From Clostridia bacterium (GTDB taxonomy: Bacteria; Bacillota; Clostridia; Christensenellales; Borkfalkiaceae): 46,832 nucleotides of DNA. The stretch spans positions 1-46,832 of the forward strand of contig JAFTHW010000003.1 of NCBI GenBank assembly GCA_017457225.1. The letters run 5' to 3'. Positions 35,073-35,904 of this stretch are shown piece by piece. How positions within the stretch are numbered: the first letter of the stretch is position 1; the number at the start of each line of letters is the position of its first letter. The notes under the pieces are model-generated. The model did no database searches and was not told the DNA's origin. It was given only the letters and a program-made list of their open reading frames with translations. Both the position numbers and the translations under genes were made by a program.

Positions 35073-35100
35073 TTGACAAATCCAAAATCTATGCTATAAT
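35073..35100 (+). promoter_or_regulatory. Consensus sigma-A promoter of the large candidate RNA
   Basis: TTGACA at 35073-35078, a 16-base spacer, and TATAAT at 35095-35100: both boxes are perfect. An AT-rich run lies upstream. There is no ORF of useful size downstream for over 800 bases. Confidence 0.88.
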
Positions 35101-35271
35101 TAAGCTACAAAAGAAAGAAGCAAACAAAAAATGTTTCAATCTTTCACGCATAATACATATACTAATAAGGGAGACATACCAATGCAAACGTAGCGGGTAG
35201 CCGACGGAGTCGGCAAGGAGTTGCAGGGATGCAACGGAAGAAATGTAAGGATAAGGAGGGTACGAAAAGTG

Positions 35272-35304
35272 ATGATTCCTTACCGAGAAGGAGCGGTGAA
35301 GTAG
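35272..35304 (+). other. Mini-ORF MIPYREGAVK inside the candidate RNA
   Basis: An ATG at 35272 opens a ten-codon frame ending at TAG (35304), preceded by aaggagggt about 11 bases upstream. Its start region also takes part in the 35245-35283 stem. It could be a leader peptide or chance. Confidence 0.25.
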
Positions 35305-35612
35305 GACGCCGCGAAAGGAGAAGGAAGCCTGAGAACGAACCTAAAGACGAGGCAAATGGAGATTTGACGAAGTTTCGGTAGGCGCTCGTCGCGCCAGAGG
35401 CAAGGCAAGAGATCGGGCAGGCACGAAAGTGGGGTAGAGATTCGACGGAATTTCGAGAGCGATCGGAACGCGAGTTCGCCTAGCGGTAACGGCGAGAAAT
35501 CTAAAAAGGGGAGTATGTAACAATGAAAAATACAAGTGATACTCCAACGGGCAACGGTTAGCCGACGGGTGTCGGACGAAAACAGAAAAACGTTAAAGGA
35601 GGGGACGGTGAA

Positions 35613-35707
35613 ATGGTAACAAAGAAACTGTCGGAACGGTACTTTAACAAGAAAGAAAAAGAGAGGGTAGACCAATGAACCATTTTAAAAAGGACGTTCA
35701 AAACTGA
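35613..35707 (+). other. Two overlapping mini-ORFs (21 and 10 codons) inside the candidate RNA
   Basis: ATG at 35613 follows aaaggagggg and reads MVTKKLSERYFNKKEKERVD plus Q to TGA at 35676. A second ATG at 35675 overlaps that stop (ATGA), follows agagggt, and reads MNHFKKDVQN to TGA at 35705. The stop-start overlap looks like translational coupling. Both are very short, and one spans the paired region 35592-35648, so they may be accidental. Confidence 0.3.
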
Positions 35708-35811
35708 AGTAACCTGAATGTAGCGGCGTAATGCCGGCGGGCAACGTATGGTTGCAAACCACAGGCGAAAGAGAAATGTAAACGTCCGAAAAATTAAATA
35801 TGAAAACAATT

Positions 35812-35846
35812 ATCCCCCGAGAAATTTGGGGGATTCGTTTTGTTTA
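35812..35846 (+). terminator. Terminator of the large candidate RNA
   Basis: ATCCCCC/GGGGGAT (35812-35818 with 35828-35834) followed by tcgttttgttt. Confidence 0.85.
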
Positions 35847-35875: not shown

Positions 35876-35904
35876 TTGACAGACTCCGCAAAATATGATA
35901 TAAT
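35876..35904 (+). promoter_or_regulatory. Consensus sigma-A promoter of the small lipoprotein gene
   Basis: TTGACA at 35876-35881, a 17-base spacer, and TATAAT at 35899-35904, with an extended -10 (TGA before TATAAT). This is a perfect promoter for a 62-residue protein. Confidence 0.9.

Follow-up and report, generated by a model that had tools for sequence, protein, structure and literature searches.

SgrS/SgrT and RNAIII/hld are dual-function RNAs, both coding and regulatory, and the trp and tna leaders are leader-peptide attenuators, in which translation of a short open reading frame (ORF) competes with an RNA stem. The lambda bar minigenes are two-codon minigenes. So is the axe-txe minigene, according to the excerpted text of PMC8708949. 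GOLLD and ROOL are RNAs of phages and prophages, as described in excerpts of PMC12286853.

The locus analysed here lies in a 46,832-nucleotide stretch of DNA (the window) from a Clostridia bacterium of the family Borkfalkiaceae. Like SgrS/SgrT and RNAIII/hld, it appears to specify a structured stand-alone RNA that is also translated, but it has several ORFs rather than one, most of them far shorter, their peptides are hardly conserved, and the last ORF is an arm of a closing helix. By comparison, two of the three listed features of dual-function RNAs are found, in that the evidence points to translated ORFs and to a covarying structure; the series of micro-ORFs and the closing-helix arm formed by an ORF would distinguish the RNA from that group, and there is a chance that it forms a new class. 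As in the trp and tna leaders, short-ORF translation would compete with an RNA stem, but the transcript appears to hold no regulated downstream gene, has its own terminator and carries its ORFs in series. Its first ORF, alpha, resembles the lambda bar and axe-txe minigenes, as far as the excerpts on the latter go, in that a Shine-Dalgarno (SD) site leads a start codon with just one or two codons before the stop; on the same excerpts, it differs from axe-txe in being part of a chain in a conserved structured RNA and not beside a toxin gene. With OLE, GOLLD and ROOL it shares size, rich structure and an unknown role (PMC12286853, in excerpt), and it differs from them in its micro-ORF chain and in having no match at an Rfam gathering score.

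Judged from sequence, the RNA is one that recurs across a single bacterial family; selection acts on the reading frames of its micro-ORF chain, the RNA being not simply non-coding, and these frames are conserved while the peptides hardly are. The reading that we favour, tentatively and with somewhat less than even confidence, is a family-conserved, stand-alone structural RNA that is translated and whose 3' domain would be gated by ribosomes on the micro-ORFs, a gating that we infer.

Transcript borders, class and distribution

Two elements are predicted to delimit the transcript:

35073..35100, + strand: promoter, TTGACA-16-TATAAT with TG before the -10 hexamer (from sequence; kept in congener RNAs)
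35812..35834, + strand: intrinsic terminator hairpin of 10 pairs

The promoter has 12 of 12 matches. Among 28 RNAs from the window's own genus (the congener RNAs, including that of the window), TATAAT is present in all and TTGACA in 27, the remaining one being truncated where its contig ends; such a strong, conserved promoter suggests that the RNA may be highly expressed. A first-pass annotation of the window had described a perfect promoter, a clean terminator, a size of about 735 nt and strong folding. All of these hold: the promoter and a terminator-like hairpin are present as listed, the transcript as folded is 741 nt, and its energy is -194.6 kcal/mol versus -166.5 (sd 4.9) in 20 shuffles (z -5.8). 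The upstream gene is MreB/Mbl (PF06723, 199.5 bits), and the small downstream ORF, which that annotation had called a lipoprotein gene, has no Pfam match. An MreB-like gene lies within the flanks (up to 1.5 kb or to the contig end) of 24 of 39 stretches, in varying orientation: in some it precedes the RNA, and in others it follows on the opposite strand. SpoIIE-like and FtsH-like sequence, recognised by eye only, lies near some other copies of the RNA. In the window, a second perfect promoter, TTGACA-17-TATAAT at 35876-35904, serves the small downstream ORF, and positions 1-86 are a 5S rRNA truncated by the window start.

The same annotation had placed the RNA in no known class and in a chromosomal, non-prophage setting, and the searches bear out both. 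Class membership was taken as a score at or above a family's gathering score in Rfam 15 (OLE, GOLLD, ROOL, HEARO, group II introns and the rest); no family reached that score in the window region, where just nine sub-threshold matches of unrelated kinds appeared at E <= 10. Twenty relatives gave no match at E <= 0.1. Among six further loci, two matched below threshold: L152 to STnc250 (34 of 42 bits) and L070 to BTnc005 (25 of 174.8 bits). Identity with tmRNA or 6S RNA was rejected, the best RF00023 match (G000:C8, 139.4 bits) and an RF00013 match (G000:C21, 57.9 bits) lying elsewhere, as was identity with RNase P RNA, for which neither RF00010 nor RF00011 matches anywhere in the RNA's own genome. 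Type A RNase P RNA was found in 8 of 13 genomes searched, and in two of them (G004 and G006) it lies on a different contig from the micro-ORF RNA; its absence by both bacterial models from the window's assembly is probably an assembly gap. A CsrA sponge of the CsrB/RsmZ type was also rejected, GGA being unenriched (21 versus 23.4 expected in the window RNA, with the other 27 similar). The contig is chromosomal, and no match was obtained in phages and plasmids by blastn at E <= 0.01 or in viral contigs with two exact patterns, a search of low sensitivity. The open-access literature searched held no description of such an RNA.

A longer protein on either strand was rejected as well. Of the ORFs listed inside the RNA region, the longest on the + strand has 50 aa and the longest on the - strand 131 aa. 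The 27 congeners do not conserve either one as a whole: they match these frames piecewise only (at longest 47 aa on +, and 120 aa at 34% identity on -), and their longest open frames range from 32 to 77 codons (+) and from 59 to 241 codons (-).

In a blastn search of 61 genomes, matches were obtained in 28, all of them in the window's genus (28 of its 37 genomes, own included, and 0 of 24 from the rest of the order). One RNA was taken per matching genome, with a terminator-like hairpin picked for each from a listing; because the 28 RNAs as cut span 386 to 877 nt, we regard the RNA as modular. An exact pattern in named species genomes gave 35 stretches, 32 of them in MAGs titled Clostridia or Clostridiales bacterium, 25 of which name gut samples of roe deer, sheep, goat or water deer; the other three, in single unrelated species (Aliiruegeria, Nesterenkonia, Treponema), were taken as chance. 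R1, a model of the first 190 nt of the RNA, was searched against 201 family genomes, with matches in 29, of which 25 belong to the genus, and against 396 order genomes, where the five that match are all members of the family. R2, a sequence-only model of the RNA's 5' end from the -35 box to the alpha stop (37 sequences), has matches at E <= 0.01 in 315 of 398 family genomes, of which the weakest are background; in the window's genus it matches 53 of 57 genomes, with 49 below 1e-10. In the order search, 106 of 396 genomes match R2 at E <= 0.01; 76 of these lie outside the family, where the best value is 1.6e-5. Many of the matches from the order search cover the promoter part only, and spread beyond the family was rejected, the matches there being taken as background. 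Since matches outside the family are so read, weak matches within it (g27, g29 and others) may also be background. Among the R2 matches listed, most genomes have one strong place, and G017, G458 and G725 have two.

The micro-ORF chain and its reading frames

The label non-coding, and the statement that the region holds no usable ORF, do not survive the comparison with relatives. SD-led micro-ORFs start at five positions of the window, and their frames are kept in related RNAs. The chain is as follows, each peptide being followed by a stop codon:

35182..35193, + strand: ORF alpha, MQT; SD-led start; at most 4 codons in 80 of the 89 RNAs with the start found
35272..35304, + strand: ORF 2, MIPYREGAVK; SD-led start
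35346..35466, + strand: insert of two related stretches (35346-35390 and 35438-35466), in longer members only; from blastn pieces
35523..35561, + strand: ORF 3, MKNTSDTPTGNG; SD-led start; motif in frame in 21 of 28 congener RNAs
35613..35678, + strand: ORF beta, MVTKKLSERYFNKKEKERVDQ; SD-led start; stop overlaps the omega start (AUGA)
35675..35707, + strand: ORF omega, MNHFKKDVQN; SD-led start; frame test

The general plan is an SD-led alpha (usually a start, 1-3 codons and a stop), beta (8-30 codons), omega (8-13 codons) and extra modules, many of the ORFs being just two to twenty codons in length. When starts with an SD sequence are read, the same series recurs across the 28 congener RNAs. 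Alpha has just one or two codons between its start and its stop, and is lost in L024; ORF 2 is MIPSHEEAKA-like; ORF 3 has DTPT or a close form as its motif, at a variable distance from the start; beta often contains RYFNK, and omega begins MN in nearly all. In ORF 3 of the window, GATACTCC at 35538-35545 is able to pair with the SD region GGAGUAU. The shortest congener RNAs have no ORF 3 and a merged ORF 2 and beta, a repeated module is held by L015 and L023, and most RNAs keep 3 to 5 ORFs only, despite the change in length. The two insert stretches are AUUUGACGAAGUUUCGGUAGGCGCUCG-like and look like a repeated folded unit. Two further genera, g28 and g26, follow the same plan with other peptides, such as MDK, MRIFQGLKIK and MYHDMIGAET in g28 and MKDK, MLYFARTIEEKGR and MYKFTETI in g26. 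A version in g30 (L093, L150, L157) has a different repeated module, CCCUCCAA(A/C)GGAACGG-like to ACGGAGGUAAAAUAAGUUC, in which CUCC faces GGAGG.

Frames were compared in 101 RNAs, the 28 congener RNAs among them (31 from the window's genus, g1, 47 from g28 and 23 from g26). Eight of 83 further loci yielded no RNA by the extraction rule, and L150 and L216, from another genus, were left out; the set holds one genome twice (L137, L198) and two RNAs cut early by a false terminator (L217, L219). An omega start was found in 95 of the 101, and the ORF spans 8-13 codons in 95 of 95, versus 7 and 16 in the other frames (frame 0, 30/30 in g1, 43/43 in g28 and 22/22 in g26; frame 1, 0, 4 and 3; frame 2, 7, 6 and 3). 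ORF length lies outside the search rule. In the three g28 misses L187, L189 and L191, a longer ORF is seemingly a beta-omega fusion. Beta, scored in 91 of the 95 RNAs by an end within -2 to 20 nt of the omega start, adjoins that start in 86 of 91, versus 1 and 14 in the other frames (frame 0, 25/27, 43/43 and 18/21 in g1, g28 and g26; frame 1, 1, 0 and 0; frame 2, 3, 10 and 1), and its frame is kept though lengths differ (8-13 codons in g28). The alpha start was found in 89 of 101 RNAs, with at most 4 codons in 30/30 (g1), 37/46 (g28) and 13/13 (g26), versus 9, 12 and 13 in frame 1 and 1, 1 and 5 in frame 2; in g26, where alpha was found in 13 of 23 RNAs, the test says nothing because frame 1 scores equally (13/13).

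Stop codons interchange at the same place, all three occurring at beta and omega in g1 and g28, and TAA and TGA in g26. Strong-SD micro-ORFs number 55, 90 and 31 in the three genera, where 50 shuffles average 3.6, 3.3 and 1.3 (with at most 10, 7 and 4) and the reverse strand has 0; independent events are fewer than these counts, because related species were counted separately. Frame conservation, stop interchange and the excess over shuffles argue that the ORF chain is translated. NAC codons are read by queuosine-type tRNAs, and the second codon of alpha is NAC (CAC, GAC, AAC, TAC) in 24 of 30 g1 RNAs, 32 of 46 in g28 and 0 of 13 in g26. That of omega is also NAC, but its counts are biased because the search rule partly fixes the codon (TAC in g28).

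Peptide constraint was gauged as pN/pS in g28 pairs of equal length with at most 30% differences, the pairs overlapping one another. Omega gave 0.88 (194 pairs), a peptide nearly unconstrained, and beta 0.51 (54 pairs), which indicates some constraint, whether or not it stems from pairing of its codons. Some recurrent residues match SD-pairing codons in the window, GAUACUCC with GGAGUAU and GGUACUUUAAC with GUUAAAGGAGG, and from this coincidence and the pN/pS values the peptides appear weakly constrained, beta more than omega. A polycistronic mRNA for functional micropeptides, beta above all, with a structure that just tunes expression, is a less likely but possible alternative. Such an mRNA would explain the kept frames and SD sites, the beta ratio together with the recurrent QGLKI end in g28, and the MKDK/MKYK alpha of g26, but it is at odds with the omega ratio, with peptides that are almost wholly different between genera, with an alpha of just 2-4 codons in 80 of 89 RNAs, and with recurrent residues that fall on codons able to pair with SD regions.

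Helix P1 and the proposed ribosome gating

Outside the terminator, the following structural elements were assigned:

35113..35145, + strand: conserved 5' hairpin (helix 1); 86% of cells paired; 2 of 6 pairs changed on both sides
35200..35214, + strand: hairpin 1 after alpha; from sequence
35220..35235, + strand: hairpin 2 after alpha, with a GGGA or similar loop; 92% of cells paired; 5 of 6 pairs changed on both sides
35562..35575, + strand: hairpin after ORF 3; from sequence
35692..35698, + strand: 5' arm of P1 (GGACGUU), inside omega; from species swap and sequence
35713..35765, + strand: 3' domain, with the P2 arms, P3 (35725-35735) and P4 (35741-35755); by inspection only
35781..35787, + strand: 3' arm of P1 (AACGUCC); from species swap and sequence

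In P1, the codons at the end of omega pair with a segment a short way 5' of the terminator. The first-pass annotation had described long-range 7-bp helices and had proposed covariation as a check; an equivalent helix covaries between species. Because RNAalifold on the g28 3' domain, where the alignment is poor, gave little beyond the terminator, P1 was tested by swapping arms between species in 88 RNAs picked by a 3' motif rule (28, 40 and 20 from g1, g28 and g26). Duplex energy was -12.2 for own arms versus -8.3 for swapped arms in g1 (n=28) and -10.4 versus -7.5 in g26 (n=20), with 0 of 10,000 permutations as good in either genus; in g28 (n=40) the values were -12.3 versus -11.5 (p 0.016), a weak difference. 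Taking hairpin 2 and the 5' hairpin together, 89% of cells are paired across the 28 congener RNAs, versus 83% in shuffles and 34-43% when slid. RNAalifold on alignment A2 gave no pair. The P1 swaps and the hairpins thus point to a covarying secondary structure, with P1 weak in g28. Masking of SD sites found no support as a general rule: with mean unpaired probabilities, by genus, of 0.39, 0.55 and 0.44, the sites are no more hidden than those of 22 long window ORFs (0.51).

In the relatives compared, ribosome entry sites lead the chain, beta ends beside the omega start, and the end of omega is one arm of P1, the helix closing the 3' domain, which suggests that the shape of the RNA is set by ribosomes reading its micro-ORFs. 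Ribosomes along the chain, chiefly one terminating on omega, would keep P1 open; ribosome footprints have a known size, and a footprint of that size at the omega stop would cover the 5' arm. If initiation or ribosomes became scarce, P1 would close and the 3' domain would fold into an active form, which might bind a partner or set the stability of the RNA. In that way the RNA would signal in trans how translation is faring, and being translated would count for more than the peptides made. We count in favour of the gated-RNA reading the frame tests, stop interchange, shuffle excess, the omega pN/pS of 0.88, the P1 swaps, hairpin covariation and three leaders described below (L154-L156), and against it the weak P1 in g28, the unhidden SD sites, the beta pN/pS of 0.51, the alpha test in g26 and the kinship in the counts. 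A bolder form, possible but less probable, is a new class of ribosome-gated trans-acting RNA in which the micro-ORF chain counts initiation and switches the 3' domain, serving as a translation sensor throughout one Clostridia family.

A sink for ribosomes or initiator tRNA, in which strong short ORFs recycle ribosomes and buffer the number of free ones with no folded output, is rather improbable. The covarying P1 and 3' domain are not required by it, and most RNAs hold 3 to 5 ORFs only, whatever their length; it would fit the strong conserved promoter, the several strong SD sites per RNA and the minimal ORFs, and two-codon minigenes are known, in the excerpts of PMC8708949, to act in cis on expression. 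It is highly improbable that the RNA is purely structural and its ORFs by-products of conserved pairing: peptide motifs do overlap pairing segments and no long ORF is conserved, but the frame-specific results come from ORFs of differing length, and stop codon interchange and the micro-ORF excess over shuffles also oppose it.

If the gated-RNA reading is true, bacteria keep RNAs with coding parts selected for the act of being translated, and this one would be a compact model of how ribosome flow sets the shape of a free-standing RNA. Such RNAs would escape gene callers, for which their ORFs are too short, and can be lost from RNA screens that filter out coding-like signals (compare the RNAcode step of an RNA screen, in the excerpted text of PMC8040213).

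Attenuator-like leaders and other loci with the promoter type

Least probable of all is a long leader with attenuation control of the next gene, for although leaders of that kind seem present in the same genome, the window's downstream gene has its own perfect promoter (35876-35904), the RNA has its own predicted terminator and the neighbours differ between genomes. The leaders concerned, L154, L155 and L156 (G000 C1:20772, C19:63088 and C19:53670), are weaker R2 matches and precede three similar genes that are lipoprotein-like by eye. Their promoter is of the same type, their start context is UACUCC(A/C)AUGAAC, and their leader ORF of 12 codons (by eye) carries near its end AGGAGGAAC, complementary to GUUCCUCCU ahead of a T run. 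The three are probably translation-controlled attenuators. In their minimum free energy folds the same arm prefers to pair elsewhere, which makes competing folds likely. Their layout, with an ORF in a stem, looks comparable to that of the micro-ORF RNA and may be a precedent in the same genome.

The same promoter type also stands before other long purine-rich stretches, at L159 (G410 C30:35256) in g28 and L152 (G331 C35:934) in g29, the latter with the sub-threshold STnc250 match. These have no evident micro-ORF chain and are perhaps further large RNAs.
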